Virus record (IMG/VR): IMGVR_UViG_3300014911_000028
Coordinates: 1-25,261 of that record
Direction: 5' to 3' (one strand)
DNA: 25,261 nucleotides
Source: a virus
The translations under genes and the position numbers were made by a program. Below, one piece after another: positions 446 to 14,956 of the stretch; positions within the stretch are counted from its first letter, which is position 1; each line of letters begins with the position of its first letter. The notes beneath the pieces were generated by a model, which saw only the letters and a list, made by a program, of their open reading frames with translations, was not told the DNA's origin and did not search any database.

Positions 446-468
446 CTTAACACCTCCTTTTACAAATT

Positions 469-497: not shown

Positions 498-520
498 TAA
501 AAAATTTATTCTATACTCCA

Positions 521-1003: not shown

Positions 1004-1017
1004 GGTAATATCTCCTT

Positions 1018-1263: not shown

Positions 1264-1277
1264 AATTATACCTCCTT

Positions 1278-1541: not shown

Positions 1542-1544
1542 AGT

Positions 1545-1724: not shown

Positions 1725-1740
1725 ACCTAACACCTCCCTT

Positions 1741-1923: not shown

Positions 1924-1925
1924 GA

Positions 1926-2030
1926 TTAGCACCTCCTTTCATTGATATTGTATTCTTTTTTGAGATACTCTTTTGCCTCCTTCAGGGATTCAATCCATTT
2001 TTCTATAAGTTTAGTATCTCTGTCTTTCAT
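1926..2030 (-). CDS. Very small protein, 34 aa
   Basis: Frame from an ATG at 2030 (GGAGGAGATAAG upstream) to a TAA at 1926. The predicted peptide is one amphipathic, charged helix (KLIEKWIESLKEAKEYLKKEY). The gene's own last codons form the SD (AAGGAGG) of the next gene at 1923, so expression of the two is probably linked. No function can be given. Confidence 0.45.
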   Translation of the reverse strand: MKDRDTKLIEKWIESLKEAKEYLKKEYNINERRC

Positions 2031-2056
2031 CTTATCTCCTCCTTTCCTTTTTTGTT

Positions 2057-2103
2057 CCCTATCCCCTTAGAATCTTTGGGAAATTTCAAAATAGGGGATA
2101 GGG
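2057..2103. promoter_or_regulatory. Inverted repeat, possible operator
   Basis: CCCTATCCCC (2057-2066) and its exact complement GGGGATAGGG (2094-2103) flank a 27-nt loop. It lies just upstream of the leftward start at 2030. Related sequence recurs upstream of the leftward genes at 2495 (CCCTATCCCCTTA...ATAGGGGAT, about 2538-2566) and 2871 (TTTGGGATTATAGGGGAT, 2935-2952), suggesting a shared regulator site. Confidence 0.45.
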
Positions 2104-2118
2104 GATTGAAGTTATAAG

Positions 2119-2155
2119 AAAAAAGGCCACCTAACCCTTGTGGGTCAAGTGGCCT
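2119..2155 (-). terminator. Rho-independent terminator, leftward
   Basis: On the minus strand the stem AGGCCAC (2155-2149) / GTGGCCT (2130-2124) encloses a second short stem ACCC/GGGT with a 4-nt loop, and is followed at once by six Us (complement of A2119-2124). It lies about 55 nt after the stop of the leftward gene 2211-2495, so it would end that transcript and isolate the 1-2030 block. Confidence 0.8.
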
Positions 2156-2165
2156 AATTTGAATG

Positions 2166-2201
2166 CCTATCAGCTTCTAATAGCTATTAGAAGCTGATAG
2201 G
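2166..2201. repeat. 36-bp perfect palindrome
   Basis: CCTATCAGCTTCTAATAG (2166-2183) is followed directly by its exact reverse complement (2184-2201), with no spacer. Neither side has a U-run, so it is a poor classical terminator, although it adds to the terminator block behind gene 2211-2495. Alternatives are a binding site for a dimeric recombinase or regulator, a cruciform, or a resolution site. Confidence 0.85.
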
Positions 2202-2210
2202 GTAAAGAAA

Positions 2211-2495
2211 TTAGGCAAATGAAATAAGGCCTTTTTCACCTACAAAGTGAGCGATTTTAATCTTCTCACCATAGACAGAAGTAAGAAATCGTTCAAGCCT
2301 CTTTTTAGGAAGATGGTTTATAATCCAATTTTCCCAAGAGTTCATGCTCCTAAACTTTGGGACTTTTTTAAATTTTAGGAGATTTCCAAAACTTAATCTA
2401 AATTCCTTACCGTTTGCCCTAATATGTGTGGGAGCAGAGGGATAAATAAAGACTTCCCCGAAGTTAAAACCTTTTTCAATTGTTATGTACTTCAT
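2211..2495 (-). CDS. Hypothetical protein, 94 aa
   Basis: The frame stays open to 2678, but the start at 2495 is preceded by TATAGGAGGTGTTACA, and the upstream extension translates low-complexity repeats, so 2495 is used. The protein starts MKYITIEKGFNFGEVFIYPS (beta-rich) and continues with a basic helical half (NWIINHLPKKRLERFL). No family recognised. A TATAAT hexamer (minus strand, 2528-2523) lies about 28 nt upstream of the ATG, without a clear -35. Confidence 0.65.
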   Translation of the reverse strand: MKYITIEKGFNFGEVFIYPSAPTHIRANGKEFRLSFGNLLKFKKVPKFRSMNSWENWIINHLPKKRLERFLTSVYGEKIKIAHFVGEKGLISFA

Positions 2496-2670
2496 TGTAA
2501 CACCTCCTATATTAGAATTTTCTATTATACAATTATCCCCTATCCCCTTATTTGGGTATAGGGGATTATTGCCAAGGTGGGTGATCCCTGTCCTGTTCCC
2601 TGTAGTATCAGGACAGGACAGGGGGAGGGATAGGGGGGAGGGAGTATATAGGAGGGAGGAGGTGAAGGAC
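2496..2670. other. Intergenic leader with inverted repeats
   Basis: No gene is supported here. It holds the operator-like CCCTATCCCCTTA...ATAGGGGAT (about 2538-2566), a stem CCTGTCCTG (2587-2595) / CAGGACAGG (2609-2617), and a purine tract rich in GGGAGG (2617-2662). On the minus strand this is the long leader of gene 2211-2495 and could fold strongly. Frames on both strands translate only repetitive sequence. Confidence 0.5.
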
Positions 2671-2871
2671 TTAGTCATCGCCCTTCACCTCCTTAAGATT
2701 TTTCACATTAATATCAAGCCTTGACCCTTTTGAGGTATAGCATACCCCATATCTTATGGCACCCCTTCTGTAGGTGCCTATCAGGGTCAGGACTTGCCCT
2801 GCAAGGTGCTGATATGTTTTCAGCAACCTTGCGGGATTTTTTATCTTTACTTTTTTCCCCCGCCGTCTCAT
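2671..2871 (-). CDS. Small basic protein, 66 aa, possibly beta-barrel
   Basis: Starts MRRRGKKVKIKNPARLL, then a beta-rich stretch (GQVLTLIGTYRRG, RYGVCYTSKGSRLDI) that could be a small SH3/KOW-like barrel; this is inference from pattern only. No SD precedes the ATG. The promoter at 2878-2905 would start transcription at about 2871, so the mRNA is probably leaderless. The coding sequence is more GC-rich than its neighbours and contains self-complementary segments. Confidence 0.55.
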   Translation of the reverse strand: MRRRGKKVKIKNPARLLKTYQHLAGQVLTLIGTYRRGAIRYGVCYTSKGSRLDINVKNLKEVKGDD

Positions 2872-2877
2872 GCCTGC

Positions 2878-2905
2878 AACATACCATATACATTTATTTT
2901 GTCAA
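2878..2905 (-). promoter_or_regulatory. Sigma70-type promoter, leftward
   Basis: On the minus strand TTGACA (2905-2900) is followed by a 16-nt spacer and TATGTT (2883-2878). It closely matches the promoter at 3828-3855: both read TTGACAAAAT, six variable bases, ATATGGTATG. Transcription would start next to the ATG at 2871. Confidence 0.7.
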
Positions 2906-3060
2906 TCCCTATATTTCCCTATATCAGCCAGATATTTGGGATTATAGGGGATCATTGATCTTATTTGGGTTTTTTCTTAGTTTTTTGGGAAAATTCTTAG
3001 TTTTTCTTGAAATTTGGGTTTTGGGATTGAAAAATTTGGAGAACAGCTTAACTTTTTTGT
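2906..3060. other. Intergenic, AT-rich with repeated TTTGGG/TCTTAGTTTTT
   Basis: No gene is supported. It contains one operator-like copy (TTTGGGATTATAGGGGAT, 2935-2952) and two copies of TCTTAGTTTTT (about 2975 and 2996). It separates the leftward promoter at 2905 from the rightward HNH gene. No good promoter for the HNH gene was found. Confidence 0.4.
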
Positions 3061-3504
3061 ATGGATCACCTATTAGGGATTTTCAATGGCAATAGGGTTT
3101 ATGTTTCAGATGATGATCTATATCCTTTTTGGATCACTGATACACCCAAAAAGAAAAGGAGAAAAAAGAGGAAAGTAAGGAGAGCTGAAAAGAAGGAAAT
3201 CATACCTAAGATTGAAGATATTGTAAAAGAAAGTAGTGATAGAAAAAAGAAAAGATCCCTATATAAAGCAAGGAGATATAGAAAAGAGAATCCTATATGT
3301 GAGATATGCAGAATTAGGAAAGCGGAGCATACACATCACCTTATCCCTTTATCTGAAGGCAGTAAAGATTCTTATGAAAATTTTATATCAGTATGTATTG
3401 AATGTCATTCAAGATTGCACTATAGGAGATATAGGAAGTTTATTTTATCTTCAGGAAGTATAAAGATAGATAGAGGATTTTTGAAGGGAAGGGATGAGGA
3501 TTGA
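3061..3504 (+). CDS. HNH endonuclease, 147 aa
   Basis: The C-terminal half carries a zinc-bound HNH core: Cys80 and Cys83 (CEIC), the catalytic-type HTHH at 90-93, Asn107 (ENF), Cys112 and Cys115 (CIEC) and His120. The N-terminal half has a very basic stretch (about 30-45, KKKRRKKRKVRR) likely to bind DNA. It is the only rightward gene in the 0-4.7 kb region and its 3' end overlaps the leftward gene 3420-3626 by 85 nt, both signs of a mobile nuclease gene inserted into an older operon. There is no clear SD, so the exact start is uncertain. It could be free-standing homing HNH or a packaging-associated HNH; location favours the former. Confidence 0.85.
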   Translation: MDHLLGIFNGNRVYVSDDDLYPFWITDTPKKKRRKKRKVRRAEKKEIIPKIEDIVKESSDRKKKRSLYKARRYRKENPICEICRIRKAEHTHHLIPLSEGSKDSYENFISVCIECHSRLHYRRYRKFILSSGSIKIDRGFLKGRDED

Positions 3505-3626
3505 AGGGATACCTGTGTCCAATCTTCTCGATTTACACCTATAATTCTAAAATAGCCGAATGCTGTATTTAATCTTGCTTCAACTTTACCTTTATTGATG
3601 TCCTTATATACATCTCTTAGCTTCAT
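3420..3626 (-). CDS. Hypothetical protein, 68 aa, 3' end antisense to HNH gene
   Basis: The start at 3626 has AAAAGGAGGTGTTAAG, one of the best SDs in the window. The first ~40 residues (MKLRDVYKDINKGKVEARLN, then AFGYFRIIGV) look like ordinary protein. The last ~28 are translated from the strand opposite the HNH gene and look less convincing. The original C-terminus may have been lost when the HNH gene arrived. No family recognised. Confidence 0.5.
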   Translation of the reverse strand: MKLRDVYKDINKGKVEARLNTAFGYFRIIGVNREDWTQVSLQSSSLPFKNPLSIFILPEDKINFLYLL

Positions 3627-3640
3627 CTTAACACCTCCTT

Positions 3641-3796
3641 TTATTTTAGATAATTTACCTTAAACTTCTTTTCAAAATCATTCGCTGTCTTTTCATATTC
3701 CTCAGCTCTTTTGTCTATCTCATTCAGCTTTACCTTTCCTTCAAAAAAGTCCAACATTGCCCATCTTTTGCTATGTTTGTATTGTTTTCTTTTCAT
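3641..3796 (-). CDS. Small charged helical protein, 51 aa
   Basis: Frame from an ATG at 3796 to a TAA at 3641. AAAAGGAGGTGTTAGGT precedes the ATG and a strong promoter lies 32-59 nt upstream. The sequence is Lys/Glu-rich and helical (KLNEIDKRAEEYEKTANDF). Its stop is 15 nt before the next start at 3626, so the two form an operon. As first gene of the leftward block it could be regulatory, but no DNA-binding motif is visible. Confidence 0.65.
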   Translation of the reverse strand: MKRKQYKHSKRWAMLDFFEGKVKLNEIDKRAEEYEKTANDFEKKFKVNYLK

Positions 3797-3827
3797 ACCT
3801 AACACCTCCTTTTTTATTTTTTACCCC

Positions 3828-3855
3828 ATCATACCATATCCCAGAATTTTGTCAA
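3828..3855 (-). promoter_or_regulatory. Sigma70-type promoter, leftward
   Basis: Minus strand: TTGACA (3855-3850), a 16-nt spacer, TATGAT (3833-3828). A TG dinucleotide lies close before the -10. It drives genes 3796 and 3626 leftward. Spacer and flanks resemble the promoter at 2878-2905. Confidence 0.8.
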
Positions 3856-3910
3856 GCATTTTTTTATCATTTTCTCAAAAAATTTTTATTTTTCTTAGCA
3901 ATGATCTCCT

Positions 3911-4132
3911 GCAAAAACCATGCCAACCTAAATCCTTAACCATTTCCAGCACTTAGCTCTGATTTTCCTTTGGCATGATTCTTGCTTATTCTTGTAAGTT
4001 GGTGAAAAGACAAGGGATTTGGGAATTGGCATGATTCTTGCCTTGCTGGATGCAAGAAGTATGCCAGAAGGGGTAGGATGGATGGCGGGATGTTGGCATA
4101 GATCTTGCATAGCCGTATGCAAAAAGCGTGCC
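3911..4132. promoter_or_regulatory. Six-copy TGGCAN8TTGC motif cluster (sigma54-like)
   Basis: Six sites share a GG-N10-GC core with TTGC at the end. Plus strand: 3971-3985 TGGCATGATTCTTGC, 4027-4041 the same 15-mer, 4094-4108 TGGCATAGATCTTGC. Minus strand: 3925-3911 TGGCATGGTTTTTGC, 4066-4052 TGGCATACTTCTTGC, 4133-4119 CGGCACGCTTTTTGC. The sigma54 consensus is TGGCAC-N5-TTGC with an exact GG-N10-GC. The second and third plus/minus pairs face each other across exactly 10 nt, forming inverted repeats. They may be sigma54-type promoters or paired operator/replication sites; the convergent geometry makes the second option at least as likely. Confidence 0.6.
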
Positions 4133-4144
4133 GAGTTGACCCGC

Positions 4145-4183
4145 ATGGGGCGGGGGCGGGCAAGCGTCAACCCCCTCCCCCAT
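4145..4183. repeat. GC-rich inverted repeat in AT-rich DNA
   Basis: ATGGGGCGGGGG (4145-4156) pairs with CCCCCTCCCCCAT (4171-4183) apart from a central mismatch/bulge. A second, competing pair GTTGAC (4135-4140) / GTCAAC (4166-4171) overlaps it. Together they make a GC island of about 50 bp next to the motif cluster. A U-run follows only 12 nt later, so terminator function is uncertain; a protein site or a strand-opening barrier is possible. Confidence 0.55.
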
Positions 4184-4207
4184 CTCCCTATATTTTTCAT
4201 CCCTATT

Positions 4208-4540
4208 TTTCAGGTTCAAATATTTGGGTATAGGTTGGGGTATTTCTATTTCATACTTATCTTACTCTTCAGGTATCAAATATTCTAGTATTGGGGATCA
4301 GGGTATCAAATTTTTGATATTAGCTTAGAATATCCTTATTCTTATCTCTATTTTCAGGTATCAAATACTTTGGTATTGGATTAAGATATTTTTATTCCTA
4401 TTTCTATTTCTGGGGATAATAAATTTTGGTATGGGTTAGGGTGTCTCTATCTCTACCTCTATCTCTATCTCTATCTCTATCTCTATCTCTATTCTTATTA
4501 CTATCTCCTATTCTTCAGGTATCAAATATTCTGATATTGG
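4208..4540. repeat. Degenerate iteron-like direct repeats
   Basis: Units beginning CAGGTATCAAATATT or close variants start near 4210, 4271, 4301, 4354, 4409 and 4517, each followed by TGGTATTGG/TAGTATTGG-like sequence and then a TATTTCTATTT-like pyrimidine stretch, mostly 55-60 nt apart. Several units contain an imperfect inverted repeat (TATCA...TGATA). Unit spacing and AT content suit replication iterons or an operator array in the divergent control region. Repeat identity is too low and there are no unique spacers, so this is not a CRISPR array. Confidence 0.5.
4445..4492. repeat. Hexamer microsatellite (CTCTAT)8
   Basis: Eight uninterrupted units of CTCTAT, one with CTCTAC, lie within the iteron-like region. 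Such a tract is prone to slippage and could alter promoter or origin spacing. It is polypyrimidine on the plus strand and non-coding. Confidence 0.9.
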
Positions 4541-4657: not shown

Positions 4658-4685
4658 TTGACTTTTTCTATCAGATGATTATATT
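4658..4685 (+). promoter_or_regulatory. Sigma70-type promoter for the paralogue array
   Basis: TTGACT (4658-4663), a 16-nt spacer, TATATT (4680-4685). It shares TTGACTTTTT and ATGATTA before the -10 with the promoter at 5140-5167. It lies 23 nt upstream of the first array gene. Confidence 0.7.
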
Positions 4686-4708: not shown

Positions 4709-5038
4709 ATGCTATTCAGAGATTATATAGAGCAGGGAATATTTAGATTGATTATTAAACTGTGTCCAAAACTAACTACGGTTAGGATGATGGGATATGA
4801 TGGAATAAGGATTGCAATTCGCAGGAATAAGTGTTATAGTGGGGTAGATATATTGGGGATAGATTTTAAGGGAAGAGTGGTGAACTGGTGGATAAGATTT
4901 GTCAGGCTTAGTTATGAACTTGATGAGATAAAGAATGCTCTATATATGGCAGTTGAGAAAGTAATGAATGGAGACTATACTGAATATGAGTACAGGATTG
5001 ATGGTAGTGGGTGGGTGGAAGTGGAAGTATGGATATGA
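4709..5038 (+). CDS. Array paralogue 1 (MMGYD family), 109 aa
   Basis: First of the tandem paralogues. Layout: an N-terminal helix (about 8-22), the family core RMMGYD at 26-31 leading into a strand (GIRIAI), a FKGR motif at 53-56, a second helix (LDEIKNALYMAVEKV), the second family motif NGDY at 87-90 and a C-terminal strand (VEVEVWI). It belongs to the long-N-terminus subgroup with 5188, 6465, 7058 and 7381. No known domain recognised. The stop overlaps the ATG of a truncated relic (ATGA), the coupling used throughout the array. Confidence 0.8.
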   Translation: MLFRDYIEQGIFRLIIKLCPKLTTVRMMGYDGIRIAIRRNKCYSGVDILGIDFKGRVVNWWIRFVRLSYELDEIKNALYMAVEKVMNGDYTEYEYRIDGSGWVEVEVWI

Positions 5039-5103
5039 TCAGGGTGTTGGCAAGTGTAGGTAAGATCTATGATTATAGCTTTGAATTAGGCCAATATATT
5101 TAG
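5035..5103 (+). pseudogene. Truncated array paralogue relic, 22 codons
   Basis: Begins by ATGA overlap with paralogue 1 and reads MIRVLASVGKIYDYSFELGQ before a TAG. The first ~33 nt are nearly identical to the start of the intact gene at 5501 (shared TTGGCAAGTGTAGGTAAGAT), then similarity stops at the core motif. This is a broken copy and direct evidence of birth-and-death turnover in the array. Confidence 0.7.
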
Positions 5104-5139
5104 CTTTAGAGTGGTTATGAATTAATGATAAAGGTAGTC

Positions 5140-5167
5140 TTGACTTTTTTCAGTAAATGATTACAAT
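5140..5167 (+). promoter_or_regulatory. Sigma70-type promoter inside the array
   Basis: TTGACT (5140-5145), a 16-nt spacer, TACAAT (5162-5167). It closely resembles the promoter at 4658-4685 (shared TTGACTTTTT and ATGATTA), so it was probably duplicated together with an array gene. It drives 5188 and the genes behind it. Confidence 0.7.
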
Positions 5168-5187
5168 AGATATAAGGGAAATAAGGT

Positions 5188-5508
5188 ATGAATATAAGAG
5201 ATTGGAGAGAGAGATGTATATTTGATAGATTTATAAGGGAATTTCCACAAGTATTGGTTTTTAAGATGGTTGGATATGATAAGGTGGAATTGGTGTTTCA
5301 TAAGAGATATGGTATCAAAGCCACTTCAAGAATTGTAATATTCTTCAAAGACAGATGTGCATCACTTAATGGAGCTGATTTCTTTGAAATGGAAACTATT
5401 AGGGAATATATTCCACTTGCAATAGATAAACTACATAAAGGTGAATATCAGGAATATGAAGTCTCAGATAATAATAAAGTTATAAGAATAGTTATTGGTG
5501 ATGATTAA
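5188..5508 (+). CDS. Array paralogue 2, 106 aa
   Basis: Long-N-terminus subgroup: IRDWRER at 3-9, REFPQVLVF before the core KMVGYD at 26-31, FKDR at 53-56, and the second motif KGEYQEYE at 84-91 before a final strand (VIRIVIG). At nucleotide and protein level it is closest to the genes at 6465 and 7058. It overlaps the next gene by 8 nt (ATGATTAA). Confidence 0.8.
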   Translation: MNIRDWRERCIFDRFIREFPQVLVFKMVGYDKVELVFHKRYGIKATSRIVIFFKDRCASLNGADFFEMETIREYIPLAIDKLHKGEYQEYEVSDNNKVIRIVIGDD

Positions 5509-5818
5509 AGTATTGGCAAGTGTAGGTAAGATGTTTGGATATGATGTCTTGTGTATGAGGAATTATTATTCTGGAATGTGTGTATTTGTGGATAATAGTG
5601 TTGAGTGCAGGTATTATGGGTATAAGGGTGTATATGTTGATGGTGTTAAGATGTGTTTGGGATGCTGGGTAGGAGAAATTGATACTGATGATTTGAACAG
5701 AGTTGCAGAGAAAGCATTGGTGGAGATAGGTAGGGGAAGTGTGGAGATAAGGGATAATGTATTATGGTCTCATTTCAGTAAGGGTGATGGGGCGGTGGGT
5801 GAGATATGGATAGTGTAA
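5501..5818 (+). CDS. Array paralogue 3, 105 aa
   Basis: The start at 5501 is preferred over an upstream in-frame TTG because it overlaps the previous stop and aligns with the relic at 5035. Short-N-terminus subgroup: the core KMFGYD is at 10-15, followed by a strand (VLCMR). The middle is Cys/Tyr-rich. The second motif is weak here (IGRGSVEIRDN). It ends in a strand (GEIWIV) like other members. Confidence 0.75.
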   Translation: MIKVLASVGKMFGYDVLCMRNYYSGMCVFVDNSVECRYYGYKGVYVDGVKMCLGCWVGEIDTDDLNRVAEKALVEIGRGSVEIRDNVLWSHFSKGDGAVGEIWIV

Positions 5819-5857
5819 AGATAATAGCTACTTTTCGGGTGTATATATAAGGTGAGA

Positions 5858-6217
5858 ATGTTACTGAAACCTGAACAAGTTAAGGTTATAAGAGCTATAG
5901 GTAGGATGATGGGATTCAATATGATTCAGGTAGTAGATAAAAGAGAGAATTTTGGTAAATTCTGTATTGTGGTTGGTAGGGATAGTATAGAGAAACGCAA
6001 TTTTATTGATGGAAATACTTATTGTTGGTTTATGTCAGATAAGGGTAAGATTGACAAAGTTAACCTTGTGTGTTACTTTTGTTGGAAACTGTGGATACTT
6101 ATAGATGTTGATATGGTGTTTAATTCAGTATTGGACAGATTATCTGATGGTGATTTTAGAGTTAGAGAGTATATAATGAAAGAATATGAAAGGAAAGTAT
6201 GTGTGGTAAGGATATGA
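5858..6217 (+). CDS. Array paralogue 4, 119 aa
   Basis: Core RMMGFN at 16-21 after a helix (VKVIRAIG), and the second motif SDGDFRVREY near 98-107. The start is uncertain: an in-frame GTG two codons upstream (5852) is possible, since the SD-like AAGGTGAG is very close to the ATG. Coupled to the next gene by an ATGA overlap. No outside family recognised. Confidence 0.7.
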   Translation: MLLKPEQVKVIRAIGRMMGFNMIQVVDKRENFGKFCIVVGRDSIEKRNFIDGNTYCWFMSDKGKIDKVNLVCYFCWKLWILIDVDMVFNSVLDRLSDGDFRVREYIMKEYERKVCVVRI

Positions 6218-6483
6218 AAGGGTTTCTCAGTATATGTAAGATGATGGGTTGGAAAAAGGTGTTTATAATGGGTAAGGGTTGTAGTTGGAGAGTGGTAATA
6301 TTTAAAGATAGGGTCATGATTACCTACCACAGTCCTACAACTGGTGTCTTGTTTGTAGATAAGATTCCAGATGATGTGATTAGAAAAGCCTATAGTAGCA
6401 TTTCAAGTGGCAGATATGATGAGAATGTGATAGTGGGTGTAGATGATCCTGAAAGGGTGGTAGTATGTTGGATATATGTATAA
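6214..6483 (+). CDS. Array paralogue 5, 89 aa
   Basis: The start at 6214 is chosen over an ATG at 6199 because it overlaps the preceding stop as ATGA, has AAGG upstream, and makes the N-terminus (MKGFLSICKMMGWK) align with the short subgroup. The core is at 9-14 and the second motif SSGRYDE near 65. The last strand is VVVCWIYV. Confidence 0.75.
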   Translation: MKGFLSICKMMGWKKVFIMGKGCSWRVVIFKDRVMITYHSPTTGVLFVDKIPDDVIRKAYSSISSGRYDENVIVGVDDPERVVVCWIYV

Positions 6484-6824
6484 GGGATTGGAAAGAGAGA
6501 TGTGTATTTAGGGAATTTATCAGAGAGTTTTCACAAGTGTTGGTATTTAGGATGATGGGATATGACATAGTGGAGTTGTCATGGAGAGACAAGTGTTTCA
6601 ATAAGGAGGAGTATTATGTTGATCCCAGAATTAAGTGGATGAATCGGATTGAAATCCATTTCAAGGGTAGATTTATTAGTTTTAGTAGTGGTGTTGGATA
6701 TACTGTCAGTATGAAAGATTGTGGAGAATATATCTTGATTGCATTGGACAAAGTAGAGAGTGGGGATTATCAGGAATATGAGACTTTGCAGGGTGATAGG
6801 GTGTTGACAATAAATATTGATTAG
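6465..6824 (+). CDS. Array paralogue 6, 119 aa
   Basis: Long subgroup: IRDWKER at 6-12, FREFIREFSQVLVF, core RMMGYD at 29-34, FKGR at 66-69, SGDYQEYE near 104-111, C-terminal strand (VLTINID). Compared with 5188 it carries a longer loop after the core strand. AAGGGTGG lies 5 nt before the ATG. It overlaps the previous gene by 19 nt. Confidence 0.8.
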   Translation: MLDICIRDWKERCVFREFIREFSQVLVFRMMGYDIVELSWRDKCFNKEEYYVDPRIKWMNRIEIHFKGRFISFSSGVGYTVSMKDCGEYILIALDKVESGDYQEYETLQGDRVLTINID

Positions 6825-6834
6825 GAGATTTGTT

Positions 6835-7068
6835 ATGAGATATGCTATCTATGGTCTGTTTAGTGATTGGTGGGGATACTTGATTGCTATAGGATTTTGT
6901 TTGTTATTGGTGGGACTTTCTGTAGTATGGGGAATTAGGAAATATGGGAGTTTTGAGAGATTTTTGGGAAGGTTTCGGGAAGAACTCAGGGGTAATTCAG
7001 GTGTGCTGTTGGATGATTGGGAGAGTTGGTTGGAGAGAGATGAGAGGAGATGGAGAGGTGATAATTAA
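6835..7068 (+). CDS. Small single-pass membrane protein, 77 aa
   Basis: The start at 6835 has AGGAG 7 nt upstream. One clear membrane helix at about residues 12-35 (SDWWGYLIAIGFCLLLVGLS, then VVWG), followed by a charged cytoplasmic-type tail rich in Arg/Glu. It lacks the MMGYD core, so it is not a paralogue, and is the only such gene in the array. Its end overlaps the GTG start of the next paralogue by 11 nt, so it is part of the operon. It may anchor or partner the array proteins; no direct evidence. Confidence 0.7.
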   Translation: MRYAIYGLFSDWWGYLIAIGFCLLLVGLSVVWGIRKYGSFERFLGRFREELRGNSGVLLDDWESWLERDERRWRGDN

Positions 7069-7381
7069 AGATTGGAAAAGAGAGATATTGTTTAGAGAAT
7101 TTATCAGGGAATTTCCCCAGCTATTGTATTTCAAGATGATGGGGTATGATGTGGTAGAAATTGTATTCTGGGATATTACTTTTGGTAGGATGAAAGTGGA
7201 TTTCAGGAATAGGTTATTGGAAACAGAAGTGAATCTGGATAAATTCAGACTTGAATCTGTCAGAGAAATTGTAAAGGCAGCAGTTGACAAGGCTCTTAAT
7301 GGAGATTATGATTCTTACAATGAGTTAGATGATAGAGATGTCATAAAGATGATAGTTTATGATAGAGAAGTATCTGTGTGA
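7058..7381 (+). CDS. Array paralogue 7, 107 aa
   Basis: A GTG start at 7058 is chosen because it gives (M)IIKDWKRE, aligning with IRDWRER/IRDWKER of the genes at 5188 and 6465, and has GAGGAG 9 nt upstream; the frame stays open further 5'. REFIREFPQLLYF precedes the core KMMGYD at 26-31; FRNR and NGDYDSYN follow in family order. The stop overlaps the next start. Confidence 0.75.
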   Translation: MIIKDWKREILFREFIREFPQLLYFKMMGYDVVEIVFWDITFGRMKVDFRNRLLETEVNLDKFRLESVREIVKAAVDKALNGDYDSYNELDDRDVIKMIVYDREVSV

Positions 7382-7701
7382 TGGAACAACTATTGTCGGT
7401 AGAAAGTTGGATAAGTAGAGTAGTGTTTAGAGAGCTCATAAATCTATGTCCTAATATATCTATAGTTAGGATGATGGGATATGATGTAGTAAGAATATTT
7501 ACAGATGCTTATACTCTCAGACATATAGGAATAGACTTCAGAGATAGGAGAGTGATATTAGATGCAGTTTTGGATACAGATGTATCAAAATTGAAAGAGA
7601 CTTTGATGGGAGCAGTAAATAAGATAATAGATGGGGATTGTTGGGTAGGTAATAATGTAGATGGAAAGATAGAAGTAGCTGTGAAAGTGGAGATGGAATA
7701 A
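7381..7701 (+). CDS. Array paralogue 8, 106 aa
   Basis: The ATG at 7381 shares its A with the preceding TGA. Long subgroup, closest to paralogue 1: LCPNISIV then the core RMMGYD at 30-35, FRDR in the position of FKGR, second motif DGDCW, final strand (EVAVKVEM). The next gene starts 1 nt after the stop. Confidence 0.8.
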   Translation: MEQLLSVESWISRVVFRELINLCPNISIVRMMGYDVVRIFTDAYTLRHIGIDFRDRRVILDAVLDTDVSKLKETLMGAVNKIIDGDCWVGNNVDGKIEVAVKVEME

Positions 7702-7702
7702 G

Positions 7703-8008
7703 ATGACAAAAACTGTTATGGCTCTTTGCAAAATGATGGGATTGGATAGGTTATGTATTAGGGAAAGGGGTGGTGATCCGCTAATTAGAGTTTGTTTAAT
7801 TGTTAAGGGTAAGGACTGTGATGGTAGAGAAAGTAGGGATGTATGTATGCGATGTTATTGTTTGTTAGATGGTGGTTTTGAAGGCAATAGGGATTTAAAT
7901 GAGATTGTGGCTCTTGGTTTTGATAGGGTGCTGAAAGGAGAGATAGATGATATTGTGCTTTGTTGGAATGGACTTTATAAAGAAAGGGTGGGGATAGTAT
8001 TAATATGA
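7703..8008 (+). CDS. Array paralogue 9, 101 aa
   Basis: Short subgroup: the helix TKTVMALC runs into the core KMMGLD at 10-15 and the strand LCIRE. The second motif is KGEID, followed by a strand ending VGIVLI. Several Cys lie in the middle (KDCDGRESRDVCMRCYC), as in paralogue 3. GGAG lies about 11 nt before the ATG; ATGA overlap with the next gene. Confidence 0.75.
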   Translation: MTKTVMALCKMMGLDRLCIRERGGDPLIRVCLIVKGKDCDGRESRDVCMRCYCLLDGGFEGNRDLNEIVALGFDRVLKGEIDDIVLCWNGLYKERVGIVLI

Positions 8009-8364
8009 ATAGATGTGGAAAGAGTAATATGATCTTTCTTTTAGAAGATCCAAAAGTGAGTAGTCTTGAATGTATTAAAATATTAATGGGAATTACAAGA
8101 ATATATGGTTACGATAAGATGGTTGTTCATTTGTATGCTCGTAAGTTCTTCATGGATTTTGATGGTCTGCATAAGAAAAGCGGTGTTCTGAAAGGTGGTG
8201 TATATTTACAAAGATTCAAGGATGGTAATTGGGATGGTCATATTCATGTTCCAGATGGATACAATATAGATTCATTCAATAATGTTATCCTTAAACTCTT
8301 GAATATGGGTGGTTTTAAATTTTATAAAGATTATATCTATGTAGAAGGGTGGTTGAATGAATAA
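8005..8364 (+). CDS. Array paralogue 10, 119 aa
   Basis: More diverged subgroup: the helix CIKILMGI precedes the core TRIYGYD (31-37) and the strand KMVVHLYA. The second motif reads MGGFKFYKD, then a strand (YIYVEGW). Linked to its neighbours by ATGA overlap upstream and an 8-nt overlap downstream. Confidence 0.75.
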   Translation: MNRCGKSNMIFLLEDPKVSSLECIKILMGITRIYGYDKMVVHLYARKFFMDFDGLHKKSGVLKGGVYLQRFKDGNWDGHIHVPDGYNIDSFNNVILKLLNMGGFKFYKDYIYVEGWLNE

Positions 8365-8671
8365 TTGGCTTGAAAGAGTAGATGTAAAAGATTTATTTGG
8401 AAGACACAAGTCTGTAAGAATTATCATGGCTTATGCTGTCATGTGTGGTATTGATTGTGTTCATATTTATGTAGCTTCTTCAGGCGATGAAATTTACATA
8501 TTTAGAGGGATTAGTAGCAAAAAGTGGATTGCGAATGTTAGAAGGGGAGATGGTGGATATGATAGAATTGATAGATTGATTTATTCTCATTTCATAAATG
8601 GTAATTTTAAGATAGTTGAAAACAATAGTGGTTGGTATGGTAGGACTATTGAAATGGTAATAAGAGAGTAG
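8357..8671 (+). CDS. Array paralogue 11, 104 aa
   Basis: Diverged member: SVRIIMAYAV then core MCGID with strand CVHIYVA, and the second motif NGNFKIVEN followed by a strand with conserved hydrophobic spacing. The Lys/Arg before the core is missing (Val), but helix-turn-strand order and gene size match the array. Confidence 0.7.
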   Translation: MNNWLERVDVKDLFGRHKSVRIIMAYAVMCGIDCVHIYVASSGDEIYIFRGISSKKWIANVRRGDGGYDRIDRLIYSHFINGNFKIVENNSGWYGRTIEMVIRE

Positions 8672-8685
8672 AGTAGAGTTTCTAG

Positions 8686-9024
8686 ATGGCAGTAGTAATC
8701 CTGAATGGCATATACAATATTAGGAAGGTGTGCAAAAAGATAGATTTATTGTTCTCCTATACAAGAATACTTGGATGTAAGAAATGTGTATTGTATGTGG
8801 ACTGTGAGATGCAGGGAGATTCACTTATTATGAAATTACATAAACAGAGTGATGGAATATGGTCTGGGGTTGTAGTCTGTAGTAGTGGGATGGAGTATAA
8901 ACTTGAGGATGTTATAATGAGAGTTATAAGAGAGGGGAAATGGGAAATTGGTAAGGATGATGAAGGTGAGAAATTTGTGTATATGAGATATAAGATGGAG
9001 AGTCTGGGGTTGACAAGTGAATAA
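8686..9024 (+). CDS. Array paralogue 12, 112 aa
   Basis: LLFSYT then core RILGCK and strand CVLYVDC; second motif EGKWEIGKD and a strand (FVYMRYKM). It begins 14 nt after the previous stop and has only a weak SD. Diverged subgroup with 8357 and 9385. Confidence 0.7.
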   Translation: MAVVILNGIYNIRKVCKKIDLLFSYTRILGCKKCVLYVDCEMQGDSLIMKLHKQSDGIWSGVVVCSSGMEYKLEDVIMRVIREGKWEIGKDDEGEKFVYMRYKMESLGLTSE

Positions 9025-9391
9025 AAATGATTATATTTCTTGTATGAGAAACAAATATTTTCGTGAAATTAATTACATTATAAGCAGTGAGATAGCAGAA
9101 ATAGACGAGTATAAGAAACTGAAGGAGATACTTGCCTTGATAAAAATGTTGGGTGTTGAAGGATTGGAATTTAGGATAATGGTATATAATAGGAAAAGAT
9201 CATCAGTTTTCGTAGTAATAGAAGATGATGATATGATTAGAATCAATGGTTATTTTAGGTCATCTGTCAAATCTCATGAATCTAAAGTGTATGATGTAGA
9301 TAGTGTGGCTGAAATGATATATGATAGGATACAATGTGGGGATTTTGAAGTGTATAATGATCATGTATTGATTAGTATAGATATATGTTGA
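9017..9391 (+). CDS. Array paralogue 13, 124 aa
   Basis: GTG start overlapping the previous gene by 8 nt; an ATG nine codons later is an alternative. A longer helical N-terminus precedes LKEILALI and the core KMLGVE; the second motif CGDFEVYNDH leads into a strand (VLISIDI). Overlaps the next gene by 7 nt. Confidence 0.7.
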   Translation: MNKNDYISCMRNKYFREINYIISSEIAEIDEYKKLKEILALIKMLGVEGLEFRIMVYNRKRSSVFVVIEDDDMIRINGYFRSSVKSHESKVYDVDSVAEMIYDRIQCGDFEVYNDHVLISIDIC

Positions 9392-9699
9392 GGGATAGTT
9401 TGATATACAGGGCTCCTATAGATAATATTCCTATTCCAGATCAATTCAAGCTGATTCTATCTTATGTCAGGTTATTTGGGTGTGATAGATTATGTATTAT
9501 GGGGAATAGGAGAGTAGTGGAGTATAAGTATGGTAATGCTGAATTTGTTGAAGAGAGATCTCTTATACTTTGGGTTGATATTAGATCCAAGACTATGACT
9601 GTATTTGATGGTGGTGAAATTGAGTTGGAAACTGTGGAAAATAAGATTTTAAATGGGGATTTCAAGATTGAAGGAGATGCATTGATTGTGGATGTGTAA
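9385..9699 (+). CDS. Array paralogue 14, 104 aa
   Basis: Last paralogue before the IscB element: FKLILSYV, core RLFGCD, strand LCIMG, second motif NGDFKIEGD, final strand (ALIVDV). Its stop lies only about 10-25 nt before the predicted IscB guide/omega-RNA, so the element sits directly behind it. Confidence 0.75.
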   Translation: MLRDSLIYRAPIDNIPIPDQFKLILSYVRLFGCDRLCIMGNRRVVEYKYGNAEFVEERSLILWVDIRSKTMTVFDGGEIELETVENKILNGDFKIEGDALIVDV

Positions 9700-9708
9700 G
9701 AATTTCAA

Positions 9709-9985
9709 AATGTTATGCTGTTATGTCAACCACCCCACCCTAATAAAGGGTAGAGCTTATAGCTCTGAGGTTGACTAGGGGGTATGGAGATGGTAATTCC
9801 ATACAGCCGTTATTCTGGTCATGGCACTCTGGGGTGTTTCGCAAGCTCCAGACACTGTCGTTGGTGGTTAAACAGTCCTGTCGGGGTAGGGGCAGTGCTA
9901 CCAACACAAAAAGCCAGAATAACTTCCCCGATGCAGACTCTAACCTGCCTTCAGGCAGAGGTAAACTCCTTTATGTTAGGAGGAT
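9709..9985 (+). ncRNA. Predicted IscB omega-RNA 1 with guide
   Basis: The region between the array and IscB1 folds as expected of an omega-RNA. Stem GTCAACC (9725-9731) / GGTTGAC (9769-9775) encloses two small hairpins. A long-range stem GTTATTCTGG (9809-9818) / CCAGAATAAC (9914-9923) encloses further helices, including GTTGGT (9860-9865) / ACCAAC (9900-9905). A pseudoknot TCGGGG (9881-9886) / CCCCGA (9926-9931) and a 3' hairpin CTGCC/GGCAG (9945-9958) follow. In IscB systems the guide is the ~16 nt 5' of the scaffold, here about 9709-9724 (AATGTTATGCTGTTAT). Exact ends are inferred. Confidence 0.8.
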
Positions 9986-9991
9986 TTATGT

Positions 9992-11245
9992 ATGGTTGTT
10001 TATGTGTTAAATAAACAAGGTAAACCTTTGATGCCTTGTCATCCTGCAAAGGCAAGGATATTGCTTAAGCAGGGTAAGGCAAAGGTAGTGCAGAGAACAC
10101 CTTTTACAATACAACTTCTTTATGGGAGCTCAGGTTACAAACAACCTATTGTTCTTGGGGTAGATAGTGGATATTCTCATATTGGGCTTTCTGCTATTAC
10201 TCAAAAGAAGGAAGTATATAGTGCAGAAGTTCAACTTAGAACAGATATTGTGAAATTGTTATCTGAACGCAGAGAATATAGGAGAGCAAGACGGCATCGT
10301 AAGACTCGGTATCGCAAACCAAGATTTTTGAATCGTAGAAGACCTGAAGGATGGTTATCTCCCTCTATACAGCATAAATTAGATAGTCATATTAAAGCTG
10401 TTAATCTGGTGAAGAAGATTCTTCCTATAACTAAGATCAATGTTGAAGTGGCAAATTTTGACATTCAAAAGATTAAGAATCCTAATATGTCAAGAAAAGA
10501 GTATCAGAATGGAGAGCAAAAAGGTTTCTGGAATGTAAGGGAGTATGTGTTGTGTAGAGACAATCATACTTGTCAAATTTGTAAAGGTAAATCGGGAGAT
10601 AATGTATTAGAGGTTCATCATATTGTTTCAAGACAAGTTGGTGGGGATAGACCAGATAATTTAATTACACTTTGCAGATCTTGTCATCAGAGATTACATA
10701 AGGGAGAATTAAAAGTGAAGTTGAAGGTGAATAAAGGGTTTAAAGCTGAGACCTTTATGTCAACTATCAGATGGAAATTGGTGAACAAGCTAAGAGAGTT
10801 AGGAAATGTAGTATCTGTAACTTATGGTTATCTTACTAAGTTGAGACGAGTAGAGTTGGGATTAACAAAGAGTCATATCAATGACGCATTTGTAATTGCT
10901 GGTGGTAGTAATCAAATTAGGAGTTCGGTTTATTATTTTATTAAACAAGTCAGGAAATGTAATCGTAAGTTATTTAAAGGAATTAGAAGTCATATCCGTA
11001 ATATTGCTGAGAGATTTGTGAAAGGCTTTCAGAGATTTGATAAAGTCAGATATAGGGGTATTGAATGTTTTATTTTTGGTAGGAGGAAGACAGGCTACTT
11101 CAGTCTGAAAAAATTGGATGGGACTGTTATTAGTGATTCAGCAAATTATAAAGAACTTAAATTACTTGAGAGCTTCAGAACATTTTTAATGGAGATGCGT
11201 CTTCTCCCTAACATGAATGTCAGGGTCTCTGACTTAAGGAGATAG
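9992..11245 (+). CDS. iscB: IscB RNA-guided nuclease 1, 417 aa
   Basis: Full-length IscB, ancestor-type relative of Cas9. PLMP motif at 12-15; RuvC-I GVDSG with Asp58; Arg-rich bridge helix about 92-118; RuvC-II NVEVANFD with Glu152; inserted HNH with Cys194/Cys197, HH 209-210, Asn223, Cys228/Cys231; RuvC-III SHINDA with Asp298; C-terminal domain about 340-417. All catalytic positions are present, so it should be active with the adjacent omega-RNA. AGGAGG lies 8 nt before the ATG at 9992. No TnpA transposase is nearby, so it probably moves by homing or by recombination. Its 3' end (AAGGAGATAGGAG) is a ready SD for whatever follows. Confidence 0.93.
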   Translation: MVVYVLNKQGKPLMPCHPAKARILLKQGKAKVVQRTPFTIQLLYGSSGYKQPIVLGVDSGYSHIGLSAITQKKEVYSAEVQLRTDIVKLLSERREYRRARRHRKTRYRKPRFLNRRRPEGWLSPSIQHKLDSHIKAVNLVKKILPITKINVEVANFDIQKIKNPNMSRKEYQNGEQKGFWNVREYVLCRDNHTCQICKGKSGDNVLEVHHIVSRQVGGDRPDNLITLCRSCHQRLHKGELKVKLKVNKGFKAETFMSTIRWKLVNKLRELGNVVSVTYGYLTKLRRVELGLTKSHINDAFVIAGGSNQIRSSVYYFIKQVRKCNRKLFKGIRSHIRNIAERFVKGFQRFDKVRYRGIECFIFGRRKTGYFSLKKLDGTVISDSANYKELKLLESFRTFLMEMRLLPNMNVRVSDLRR

Positions 11246-11248
11246 GAG

Positions 11249-11310
11249 ATGAAATACTGTGGGACTTGTAAAAGGAGAAACACTTGTAAAAAACTGTGTG
11301 CTCAGAATGA
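11249..11310 (+). repeat. 62-bp exact direct repeat, copy 1
   Basis: Identical to 14510-14571. Identity begins exactly at the A of the start codon and ends at AATGA, where both flanks differ. The sharp left edge marks the right boundary of the IscB1 element; the right edge shares ATGA with the array gene junction. Confidence 0.95.
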
Positions 11311-11314
11311 ATGA
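11249..11314 (+). pseudogene. Truncated 21-codon copy of gene 14510 start, acting as leader ORF
   Basis: The first 62 nt (11249-11310) are identical to the start of the gene at 14510; it then stops at TGA (11312-11314). The SD comes from the 3' end of IscB1 (GGAG just before the ATG). The TGA overlaps the start codons of the next array gene (ATGATG at 11311-11316), so it can hand over ribosomes. Retains the CGTC and CKKLC cysteines only. Best read as a fragment carried in with IscB1. Confidence 0.8.
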
Positions 11315-11604
11315 TGAGTAAAAGGAATGTAAATTATAGTAAAGTTCTTAGTGCTATTATGAAAATGGTAGATGCAGATTATCTTATTATATGGTATGAA
11401 ACCAAAGCAGTTGTGAGTGTCTCAAAGAAGGATAACTACAGTCCTTATGTTTCAAGTTCTTATTGGTATAGAAAATTGGGTGGAGAAAGAGTTTATGACC
11501 TTGCCTTTGAGTGTGTCAAAAAGTATGGATTATCTATTAGAGATGGAATTATTTATAATAAGATTATAGATATTCAGTTGGAGGAGGTATTAAGTGATGG
11601 GTAA
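11314..11604 (+). CDS. Array-like protein 15, 96 aa
   Basis: The start at 11314 (or 11311) aligns MSKRNVNYSKVLSAIMKM with MGKKDANYSKALSAIMKM of the next gene, so the two are recent duplicates. The helix and KM...D..strand arrangement (IMKMVDADYLIIWY) matches the array family with Gly lost from the core. The C-terminal motif is YGLSIRDG. No own SD; translation probably depends on the 21-codon leader upstream. Confidence 0.65.
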   Translation: MSKRNVNYSKVLSAIMKMVDADYLIIWYETKAVVSVSKKDNYSPYVSSSYWYRKLGGERVYDLAFECVKKYGLSIRDGIIYNKIIDIQLEEVLSDG

Positions 11605-11908
11605 AAAAGATGCAAATTATAGTAAAGCTCTTAGTGCTATTATGAAAATGGAAGAGTGGGATTATGTGTGTCTTGTTCAGGGTGATGATGTAGTTGGATA
11701 TTTTGATAGGTATGTTGAAGTAGATAATGATACTGCGAAGTGGATTATAGATAAGATAGCTAATAAGGAGTATAAGATAGATGTAGATTTTCGGTATTCT
11801 GAATATAGATCATATATTAGTGGTAAATCTGAGTGTATTCCTATAGGAAAGGTTACTTATTGTAAGATTGAGATACCTTCTGTTATTGGAGCCACGGATG
11901 ATAGATAG
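11597..11908 (+). CDS. Array-like protein 16, 103 aa
   Basis: GGAGGAGG lies about 10 nt before the ATG at 11597. The N-terminus is nearly the same as in the preceding gene, then diverges (KMEEWDYVCLVQGDD). The second motif may be NKEYKIDVD. Overlaps the preceding gene by 8 nt and the next by 11 nt, continuing the array's coupled layout. Family membership rests on the N-terminal helix and is moderate. Confidence 0.65.
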   Translation: MGKKDANYSKALSAIMKMEEWDYVCLVQGDDVVGYFDRYVEVDNDTAKWIIDKIANKEYKIDVDFRYSEYRSYISGKSECIPIGKVTYCKIEIPSVIGATDDR

Positions 11909-12395
11909 TATTGACAGAATAACATATATTGTCATTGGAGCAATATATGATGCATTAGATGCTCTTTATAGTATGCTTGTGAAAGTGAAAAGATGGTTTG
12001 AATACATATTCTCTGGTGAAGCAAGTGCAGATTATATATACAAGAGATGTCCTTATCTGTTCAGCTTGCTTAAGATGGCAGATCTTGATCAACTCCATGT
12101 TGTTCCTATAGATGGGATTTACAAGACAAGTTTATCAGAGGTATTTTATATTAATAGAAAAGATTGTAATGTGAGATTTTCATTATATGGAGAATGTGTA
12201 TGGTTAAGCGAAAATAGTATGCTCAAGACCTGCAAGATGATAGAGAGAGCATATAAGAAAGGTAGATTTGTCGTTATACCAGAGGATACATATAGGGGAA
12301 GATTGGGGTATGTTATCTTGAATGTTCCAAATGACAAAACATGGGAAATTGTAAAAGAAAAGATATTAAAGATGTTTGAAGGGAGCATGAGATGA
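11898..12395 (+). CDS. Array-like protein 17 with hydrophobic N-terminal extension, 165 aa
   Basis: The start at 11898 has GGAG 6 nt upstream and overlaps the previous stop. The N-terminal ~45 residues are hydrophobic/amphipathic (YIVIGAIYDALDALYSML), unlike other members, and may contact a membrane. The family-like part follows: LFSLLKMADLDQLHVVPIDG as helix and strand, then KKGRFVVIPED as second motif. ATGA overlap with the next gene. Confidence 0.6.
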   Translation: MIDSIDRITYIVIGAIYDALDALYSMLVKVKRWFEYIFSGEASADYIYKRCPYLFSLLKMADLDQLHVVPIDGIYKTSLSEVFYINRKDCNVRFSLYGECVWLSENSMLKTCKMIERAYKKGRFVVIPEDTYRGRLGYVILNVPNDKTWEIVKEKILKMFEGSMR

Positions 12396-12583
12396 TCACC
12401 CAAGAAGACATAGAGAGATGGCTCAGGGAAAATACCAAGCAATGTCCACTTGGTAGAGTCAGCAAGTGGCAATGTGAACAGAATAGATCCAAACCGTCCA
12501 GATGCAGTCATAGATATAGTTATAAGGAAAAACCTATAAAATGTGAGAGTTGTGAAGAGTGGAAGACAATATTCAGGGAATAA
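12392..12583 (+). CDS. Small Cys-rich protein, 63 aa
   Basis: Starts by ATGA overlap with the previous gene. Cys residues occur as CPLG, WQCEQ, SRCSHRY and KCESCEEW, so a zinc-binding knuckle is likely. The N-terminus (TQEDIERWLREN) is helical. No named family recognised; it could be a small nucleic-acid or protein adaptor. Confidence 0.6.
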   Translation: MITQEDIERWLRENTKQCPLGRVSKWQCEQNRSKPSRCSHRYSYKEKPIKCESCEEWKTIFRE

Positions 12584-12990
12584 TTGATCTTACAAAGTCC
12601 GACTATGTTGGGTGGAAAACCATAGCTACCTATATGAGACTAAGGGGTATTGATTATGTGTCCTATACTAACTATGTAAGACACTTTGAGATCTCCCTGA
12701 GTTTCAAAGATCCATCTCTCTACATCTCTGATTTCAGATACAAGCTGACTTTGTTTGAAAATTCAATGTTTAGTGGTGAGAGTGAATTTTCTGTTATGGG
12801 AATGTGTGTCTATGAGTTTTGTAAAGATTGTGGTGGTGAATGTGGAAATGGGTGCATCTTGTTTATAAACTGCTATGATAACAATTCCTTTCAGGTGGTG
12901 GGTTATAGTGATACAAGGATGTTGGGAGAAGAATATTACAAATTATTTAATAACAAACTTACTAAAGATATTGTAAAGAGAAAGGAGTAA
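12559..12990 (+). CDS. Possible distant array member, 143 aa
   Basis: The GTG start overlaps the previous gene by 25 nt and its SD is weak, so the start is uncertain. WKTIATY followed by MRLRGIDYVSY fits the helix, K/R-x-x-G-x-D and strand pattern of the array, and FKDPS resembles the FKDR position. The C-terminal part has a Cys cluster (CKDCGGECGNGC) absent from other members. Membership is tentative. Confidence 0.55.
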   Translation: MEDNIQGIIDLTKSDYVGWKTIATYMRLRGIDYVSYTNYVRHFEISLSFKDPSLYISDFRYKLTLFENSMFSGESEFSVMGMCVYEFCKDCGGECGNGCILFINCYDNNSFQVVGYSDTRMLGEEYYKLFNNKLTKDIVKRKE

Positions 12991-13882: not shown

Positions 13883-14513
13883 GACAGTCAGAGTGGGAAT
13901 ACTTGACTACAGTATCCATTTCCCATACAAGTTTGATGATGATGAGTGTATGGGAGCTACGATGGTAAATAATATATACATTTCAGATACATACAAGAGA
14001 AAGAGAGTTAGTAATACAAGTATAGTGAATACTTTTCTACATGAGCTTTTTCATGCTATAGATTCATTCTATCTATCATCTATATTGGATGACAGAATTG
14101 TAACTCTGCTTGCAAATGGCTGGATTGATATTCTGTATAACAATGACATTTATCTTGATAAGATAAATAGTGTAATAGTTCAGATGGGAAATAGATTCAG
14201 GGTTAACATTATAGATAGAAATAGCATTCCCTTTCATTCATCTCAGAGAGATGCTCTTGTAACTGTTGATGTTGAAAGATTAAGTCTTAACATCTATAAA
14301 GATGTTAATGCAGATAGTAAATACCTATTCTCTCTTATGATAGTTGGGATCTTTGTGATGATTAATTTTAATCTATTCAATGGAGAACTCACCCAGATAA
14401 ATTCTGATATAGATGTTAAGAGTATCTTAGGAAAAGCCTTTACTCAGGTATTGTATGATAATCCTTGGATACTCAGATTATCTGATGTTATAAGGAGTGG
14501 TGATAACTCATGA
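13872..14513 (+). CDS. HExxH metallopeptidase-like phage protein, 213 aa
   Basis: AAAAGGAGAAAAAC precedes the ATG. The N-terminus is a beta-rich arm (VRVGILDYSIHFPY), then a zinc motif HELFH at 57-61 within TFLHELFHAID, and DDRIVTLLANGWIDIL downstream, where a third ligand could lie. From family knowledge this resembles small phage proteins with HELLHAID that are usually annotated as hypothetical metallopeptidases; the C-terminal ~110 residues here are longer than usual. ATGA overlap with the next gene. Confidence 0.75.
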   Translation: MFPKTVRVGILDYSIHFPYKFDDDECMGATMVNNIYISDTYKRKRVSNTSIVNTFLHELFHAIDSFYLSSILDDRIVTLLANGWIDILYNNDIYLDKINSVIVQMGNRFRVNIIDRNSIPFHSSQRDALVTVDVERLSLNIYKDVNADSKYLFSLMIVGIFVMINFNLFNGELTQINSDIDVKSILGKAFTQVLYDNPWILRLSDVIRSGDNS

Positions 14514-14571
14514 AATACTGTGGGACTTGTAAAAGGAGAAACACTTGTAAAAAACTGTGTGCTCAGAATGA
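14510..14571 (+). repeat. 62-bp exact direct repeat, copy 2 (source gene)
   Basis: First 62 bp of the intact gene; identical to 11249-11310. Here the ATG overlaps the stop of the preceding gene, whereas in copy 1 it follows the IscB1 stop. Confidence 0.95.
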
Positions 14572-14956
14572 GAAATGGGTTAATAAGTATGTAAGGAATG
14601 CACCATTTGATACCCTTATTGCATCGGTTCTACCAATTACTGAATGCATCCAGTATGGTAATCCTGATAAGTCTGATAAGAGATTGGCAGTGGAGTTGTA
14701 TTACCTTGATGGAAAGTCTATAGACGAGATATGTTATCATGTTGAGCTGAGTCCAAGAATGTTAAGATACATGATTGATAGAATTGAGCAGGAAAGGAGT
14801 AGGCTGGGTAAATACAGTCTCATGAATAAGATCCTTACTTGCTATCTGGATAGAAAAATAGAGAATATGTCAGAAATAGCAAATATTTGTAAGACTTATC
14901 CACTCAAGGTAAAAAGACTTATAGATGATTTCCTACAAAAATGTGGAATTTCTTAG
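14510..14956 (+). CDS. Cys-rich N-terminus plus sigma-region-4-like HTH protein, 148 aa
   Basis: The N-terminus has a CxxC-x5-CxxxC cluster (Cys 4, 7, 13, 17). The middle (RLAVELYYLDGKSIDEICYHVELSPRMLRYM in two halves) looks like a helix-turn-helix of sigma region 4 or ArpU type. The last gene before the gap in front of the terminase, a place where late-gene activators often lie, so a late transcription regulator is a reasonable inference. Its first 62 bp are duplicated behind IscB1. Confidence 0.6.
   Translation: MKYCGTCKRRNTCKKLCAQNEKWVNKYVRNAPFDTLIASVLPITECIQYGNPDKSDKRLAVELYYLDGKSIDEICYHVELSPRMLRYMIDRIEQERSRLGKYSLMNKILTCYLDRKIENMSEIANICKTYPLKVKRLIDDFLQKCGIS

Follow-up and report, generated by a model that had tools for sequence, protein, structure and literature searches.

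Why does one virus carry a long row of small and strongly diverged genes, and are these genes copies of one another? The question arises at positions 4709-12990 of the virus record IMGVR_UViG_3300014911_000028, analyzed here over its full 25,261 bases (the window), which is probably a fragment of a larger genome. An initial annotation had described an array of small paralogues at this locus. We found that the 14 members at 4709-9699 make up one homologous tandem family. Judged from sequence, the whole array comprises 16 or more small genes with a common ancestor, from which they arose by repeated duplication and fast divergence.

One tandem family at 4709-9699

Between positions 4709 and 9699, 15 open reading frames (ORFs) run rightward, and 14 of them code for family members of 94-124 aa. 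Overlaps of 4-19 nt occur at about 10 of the 14 array junctions. The row of 14 rightward genes given in the initial annotation was recovered, with the correction that it sits among 15 ORFs, since the one at 6836-7068 is unrelated. The members fall into two groups. The five proteins of group A (4709, 5188, 6465, 7058, and 7378, each called by its start) are mutually homologous in BLASTP, with E-values from about 4e-7 to 3e-26. Group B comprises the remaining nine members, and it was tested by profiles because its divergence is too great for reliable pairwise BLAST. A hidden Markov model (HMM) built from group A only gave the nine group B members a sum of 55.9 bits. In 1000 sets of the same nine, shuffled with their composition preserved, the mean sum was 4.1 bits (standard deviation 4.4) and the highest 23.3.

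We also scored each member with an HMM built from the other 13 and compared the score with those of 1000 shuffles of the omitted member. In this leave-one-out test, 12 of the 14 scored above all of their own shuffles (p=0.001), while the p-values of 8357 and 8686 were 0.004 and 0.014. No real segment of the other window proteins matched a member's score (control maximum 7.4 bits). The claimed array is therefore present, with homology beyond chance by BLASTP, by the group A HMM, and by the leave-one-out HMMs.

Three or four more remote members had been proposed at 11314-12990. The leave-one-out test accepted 11594 (p=0.001); 11311 had p=0.09 by itself and is counted through the 5' end that it has in common with 11594. 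Membership of the other two, 11868 (p=0.17) and 12559 (p=0.03, doubtful), was left without support. Individual doubt remains for 8686, 11868, and 12559.

The mean pairwise identity of the array proteins is 20% and the minimum is 9%. The IRDW/REFIREFPQ motifs, earlier attributed to five genes, are strong in three of them, and 4709 and 7378 have them only in part. Within group A, only a few residues are invariant, with no obvious catalytic set among them. The isoelectric points (pI) of the array proteins vary from 4.7 to 9.2; such widely differing charge of small proteins is expected for binders with different partners rather than for one enzyme. A reading of the proteins as DNA mimics was ruled out by the same pI range. 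The array genes have a G-rich, C-poor coding strand with a GC skew of about 0.6: C makes up 4-8% of the coding strand (4709-9699 and 11311-11908), compared to 10-19% in most core genes.

The features of the locus, with the evidence for each, are as follows.

4658-4685, + strand: promoter P1, sigma-70-like, TTGACT-16-TATATT with the phage-specific block ATGAT before the -10 element (motif scan)
4709-5038, + strand: array gene 1, group A (BLAST to 7378, E 8e-13; leave-one-out 32.9 bits, p=0.001)
5035-5103, + strand: group B gene copy, decayed, MIRVLASVGKIYDYSFELGQYI and stop, joined to gene 1 by an ATGA overlap (over 47 nt, 79% identical to 5496-5542)
5140-5167, + strand: promoter P2, a copy of P1 482 bp downstream (motif scan)
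5188-5508, + strand: array gene 2, group A (leave-one-out HMM; AlphaFold2 model)
5501-5818, + strand: array gene 3, group B, MIKVLASVGKMFGYD (leave-one-out HMM; start taken from the repeat, the ORF list giving TTG 5495)
5852-6217, + strand: array gene 4, group B (leave-one-out p=0.001)
6199-6483, + strand: array gene 5, group B (leave-one-out p=0.001)
6465-6824, + strand: array gene 6, group A (BLAST to 5188, E 3e-26; leave-one-out HMM)
6836-7068, + strand: non-member of 77 aa with a single apparent transmembrane stretch and a weak likeness to holins (PF07332, E 0.003, under the curated cut-off)
7058-7381, + strand: array gene 7, group A (BLAST; leave-one-out HMM; as start, GTG 7058, or ATG 7040, suits the family better than ATG 6944)
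7378-7701, + strand: array gene 8, group A (BLAST; leave-one-out HMM)
7703-8008, + strand: array gene 9, group B (leave-one-out p=0.001)
8005-8364, + strand: array gene 10, group B (leave-one-out p=0.001)
8357-8671, + strand: array gene 11, group B, weaker (leave-one-out p=0.004)
8686-9024, + strand: array gene 12, group B, weakest of the 14 (p=0.014; BLAST to 8005, E 0.001)
9010-9037, + strand: promoter motif again, its third copy, with the start of array gene 13 inside it (motif scan)
9017-9391, + strand: array gene 13, group B (leave-one-out 29.8 bits, p=0.001)
9385-9699, + strand: array gene 14, group B (leave-one-out HMM; AlphaFold2 model)
9725-9943, + strand: HEARO (omega) RNA; its IscB element splits the array (RF02033, 127.7 bits)
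9992-11245, + strand: IscB RNA-guided HNH/RuvC nuclease, part of the splitting element and outside the family (sequence together with the HEARO RNA; HNH-type matches)
11311-11604, + strand: array member 15, N-terminal module as in 11594, remainder different (59% over 27 aa, E 1e-7; 85% over 71 nt)
11594-11908, + strand: array member 16 (leave-one-out p=0.001)
11889-12395, + strand: gene 11868, membership without support (leave-one-out p=0.17)
12559-12990, + strand: membership doubtful (leave-one-out p=0.03)

Searches for relatives and the predicted fold

Ten members gave no significant match in Pfam. Over PHROGs, Pfam, and NCBIfam, the best E-values were about 0.02-0.3, for short matches that were different for each member, and no near-full-length match was significant. 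When eight array members were scanned with PADLOC, there was one weak AbiEi match (E 0.014), for 9017 alone. No relatives were found by tblastn in INPHARED with 5188 and 9017 at E up to 10, by the profile search in 18 related phage records, or by the 14-member HMM in the ORFs (all or part) of about 30 related phage records, which are mostly fragments. The scans of IMG/VR (group A alignment, 6465 alone, or a degenerate DNA motif) and of GTDB genomes (group A) found no relatives either; both rely on short conserved peptides with single-sequence confirmation, and distant relatives could escape. The group B alignment contained no stretch conserved enough for use as a query.

The family had initially been described as one without known phage relatives, and this description stood, supported by every search run; no housekeeping family matched in the profile search against described families. 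As far as searched, the array family is restricted to one lineage. Given this restriction and the absence from the about 30 related phage records, the family is therefore accessory.

The AlphaFold2 model of 5188, made with the group A alignment, has the order helix-helix-strand-strand-strand-helix-strand-strand (pLDDT 85, pTM 0.77). The model of 9385, made with an alignment of group B only, has a short N-terminal strand, then a helix, three strands, a helix, and two strands; it is of moderate confidence (pLDDT 81, pTM 0.68), and the other four of its five models were poorer. The predicted element order helix, three strands, helix, two strands agrees between groups A and B, the comparison being one of element order in these two members. 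In this plan, the helix ends in a turn of the type [KR]-x-x-G-[YFWC]-[DNK], and the second helix ends in a motif of the type G-[DEN]-[FY]. The two modelled folds are not unrelated, which was a check proposed with the initial annotation.

Neither model had a PDB match at E <= 0.001, and that of 5188 had no match in the viral structure library BFVD. We considered a double-stranded RNA-binding domain (dsRBD; alpha-bbb-alpha) and rejected it: there was no PDB match at E <= 0.001, no dsRBD was among the matches listed, and the models have two extra C-terminal strands.

Duplication history, mobile elements, and setting

The promoter motif TTGACW-N11-ATGATTAYWWT has four exact matches in the window (4658, 5140, 9010, and 23947). 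Shuffled sequences gave 0.27 matches on average with up to 2 mismatches, a statistic that is partly circular, since the motif was derived from the same sites. We observed repeat distances of 482 bp for the promoter, 479 bp for gene A, and 466 bp for gene B. What was copied is therefore promoter + gene A + gene B, a unit of about 470 bp. The first copy of gene B is a 22-codon stub at 5035-5103 which retained its ATGA junction. Genes 11311 and 11594 have only a 5' module in common (the first 27 residues, 71 nt). The spacing, the stub, and the common 5' module are marks of duplication, decay, and module exchange. Together with the homology of the 14 members, they bear out the repeated duplication that had been proposed.

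The initial annotation also invoked diversifying selection among the copies, and such selection may have acted. The paralogues are too diverged (saturated) for dN/dS. The divergence between copies was 0.34-0.57 at codon position 1, 0.35-0.49 at position 2, and 0.46-0.63 at position 3, as would be seen under weak constraint only.

The HEARO RNA at 9725-9943 and the IscB gene at 9992-11245 separate array members 14 and 15. A link between IscB and the growth of the array is possible, because T6 offers a precedent, its homing endonuclease SegB promoting the segmental amplification of counter-defence loci (PMC13096335). The window has a second HEARO/IscB pair at 20810-22314. The insertion site of this second element (20790-22360) is the 5' end of a conserved head gene, and to the right of the element the gene start is re-created. 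The stretch before the second HEARO RNA, ATTATGGCCGAGTTGAGG (M-A-E-L-R), resembles the starts of the homologues in related phages (compare L021). The second IscB looks like an RNA-guided homing element in a phage, and its presumed guide stretch resembles the beginning of the head gene that follows, as expected for such an element.

An 85-nt direct repeat, 88% identical, is present at 11238-11322 and 14499-14583, and the intervening 3.26-kb segment may therefore be inserted or duplicated. Right behind the first IscB gene stands a copy of codons 1-21 of the regulator-like gene 14510.

On one side of the array is a divergent intergenic region, and on the other are the structural genes. The genes before about 4 kb mostly run leftward; the part of the window from about 13 kb rightward codes for terminase, portal, and capsid as well as for a DHH phosphoesterase, a putative metalloprotease, and a regulator-like protein. 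Homologues of the packaging and head genes were found in uncultivated phages at roughly 32-75% identity, while those in cultured phages were only distant. The searches with the terminase, capsid, and DHH protein found no close cellular or cultured relative, and therefore no host was assigned.

Several genes per genome with NUMOD3 and treble-clef zinc-finger repeats were seen in the window (24063-25259) and in G001, G002, G010, G012, and other records. They sit beside and inside core genes and are probably mobile nucleases. Long insertions split the terminase or capsid genes in L012, L019, L020, G012, G013, and G018; in L019, an open frame at 308-4456 runs across the terminase pieces, which suggests an intein. 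The record MT835680.1 (L063), labelled 'Bacteriophage sp.', resembles a bacterial chromosome scaffold, with genes resembling those for serine hydroxymethyltransferase, thymidylate kinase, LpxA, and LpxB.

Comparable arrays and possible function

A phage of the same group, with homologous terminase, portal, and capsid (G018, IMGVR_UViG_3300035698_015577), carries at 26505-40900 an array of 22 tandem diverged copies of a 65-80-aa protein (MKELKVGDKVKILSKS...RKIGIDIL) that has no significant Pfam match. Both arrays are made of tandem small paralogues, several with 4-nt overlaps. However, the G018 family is unrelated, its mean identity is 36% compared to 20% in the window array, and it lies on the strand opposite to the G018 structural genes. 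It is therefore the array architecture, and not the protein, that recurs in this phage group.

In the literature on phage tandem paralogue arrays we found no case closer than that of SIRV2, the AcrID1 cluster of which is the nearest working parallel. SIRV2 has 12 AcrID1 homologues, many of them adjacent, and its authors read them as products of duplication with possible functional diversification (PMC11065993). As in the window, SIRV2 and its relatives have many copies of a small, strongly diverged accessory family in one virus, close together and with a common regulatory sequence before several of them (PMC11065993). On the other hand, SIRV2 is an archaeal rudivirus with TATA/BRE promoters, and at least one member inhibits CRISPR (PMC11065993), whereas the window array, known from sequence alone, is in a tailed-phage-type virus and has sigma-70-like promoters and tight translational coupling. 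The likeness is architectural only: for AcrID1 or DUF1374 membership, there was no significant Pfam match (ten members) and no PDB sequence or fold match.

Tandem copying is also known from phage experiments. T4 overcomes ToxIN by tandem amplification of the counter-defence locus tifA (PMC9391042), and T6 overcomes Septu by tandem amplification of the tRNA-Tyr/segB locus, with segmental amplification driven by the homing endonuclease SegB (PMC13096335). The tandem copies in these phages were made by recombination within the genome, in T6 with a mobile endonuclease, as the window array has IscB inside. The T4 and T6 copies are recent and come from experimental evolution, while those of the window are old, diverged, and varied in charge and length.

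By analogy with these systems, we favor, tentatively, a reading in which the array is a repertoire of inhibitors of host or defence proteins and defence is one of the targets. As the sequences show, a small phage gene family was copied repeatedly in tandem, partly as the unit of promoter, gene A, and gene B with at least one copy decayed, and diverged to about 20% mean identity with the secondary-structure plan kept. In this reading, the host RNA polymerase would transcribe the array from the sigma-70-like promoters as a polycistron, ahead of the structural genes and with translation coupled. Each protein would be a small soluble binder with its fold kept and its outer parts variable; different members would block different host or defence proteins, and the repertoire would be maintained through birth and death of copies.

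Several points weigh against this reading. There was no sequence or fold match to known inhibitors or anti-defence proteins in Pfam, PHROGs, NCBIfam, PADLOC, PDB, or BFVD, and with no host assigned, no target can be proposed. Early timing is not established, the array being on the same strand as the structural genes and upstream of them. Positive selection is not established either; the position-wise divergence indicates weak constraint only. The anti-defence step itself is a plausible one, drawn by analogy.

The same anatomy would fit paralogues that bind parts of the host transcription, replication, or translation machinery and not defence systems; only the targets would differ. Small diverged genes with sigma-70-like promoters between the divergent intergenic region and the structural genes agree with such a host-takeover module. 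However, no host-binding motif or fold was recognizable, and the published cases of copy-number growth that we found concern counter-defence genes (PMC11065993, PMC9391042, PMC13096335). We consider host takeover somewhat unlikely. It is quite improbable that the array is a by-product of a duplication hot spot, where copies would survive under little selection and mobile nucleases, IscB among them, would perhaps help to produce them. The splitting IscB/HEARO element, the direct repeats and the decayed copy, the only mild skew of divergence toward codon position 3, and the role of SegB in T6 (PMC13096335) are all consistent with it, but unselected divergence should leave many broken frames. We see instead one decayed stub, 14 intact frames, a conserved motif order, and promoters retained with the copies. 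Much the same low likelihood is given to the paralogues being subunits of one complex in set stoichiometry. That arrangement would account for the translational coupling of neighbors through their overlaps; such overlaps, however, are common in compact phage operons anyway, and the low identity, the widely varying charge, and the gain and loss of copies (the stub at 5035) argue against it. Chance resemblance produced by the C-poor, G-rich coding strand and its bias on amino-acid make-up is refuted for the set, as the shuffles were beaten both collectively (55.9 against at most 23.3 bits) and singly and group A is homologous with E-values down to 3e-26.

The inhibitor repertoire may be taken one step further, in a form that we regard as a long shot. 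The array would then be a standing library of binders, 16 or more paralogues with different partners on one lineage-specific scaffold without known structural relative. It would have grown by copying of the promoter-gene unit and by exchange of N-terminal modules, with IscB breaks feeding the copying. Such libraries would have been invented repeatedly from unrelated scaffolds in this phage group, as the 22-copy array of G018 suggests.

The 16 small proteins are a concrete list of candidates for expression and screening. A few archaeal viruses are known to have clusters in which one accessory protein is present in diverged copies, with at least one member being an anti-CRISPR. If the repertoire reading is true, the much tighter, coupled array of an orphan family in the window, a tailed phage, together with the second, unrelated one in a related phage, would indicate a general route by which phages build inhibitor repertoires.

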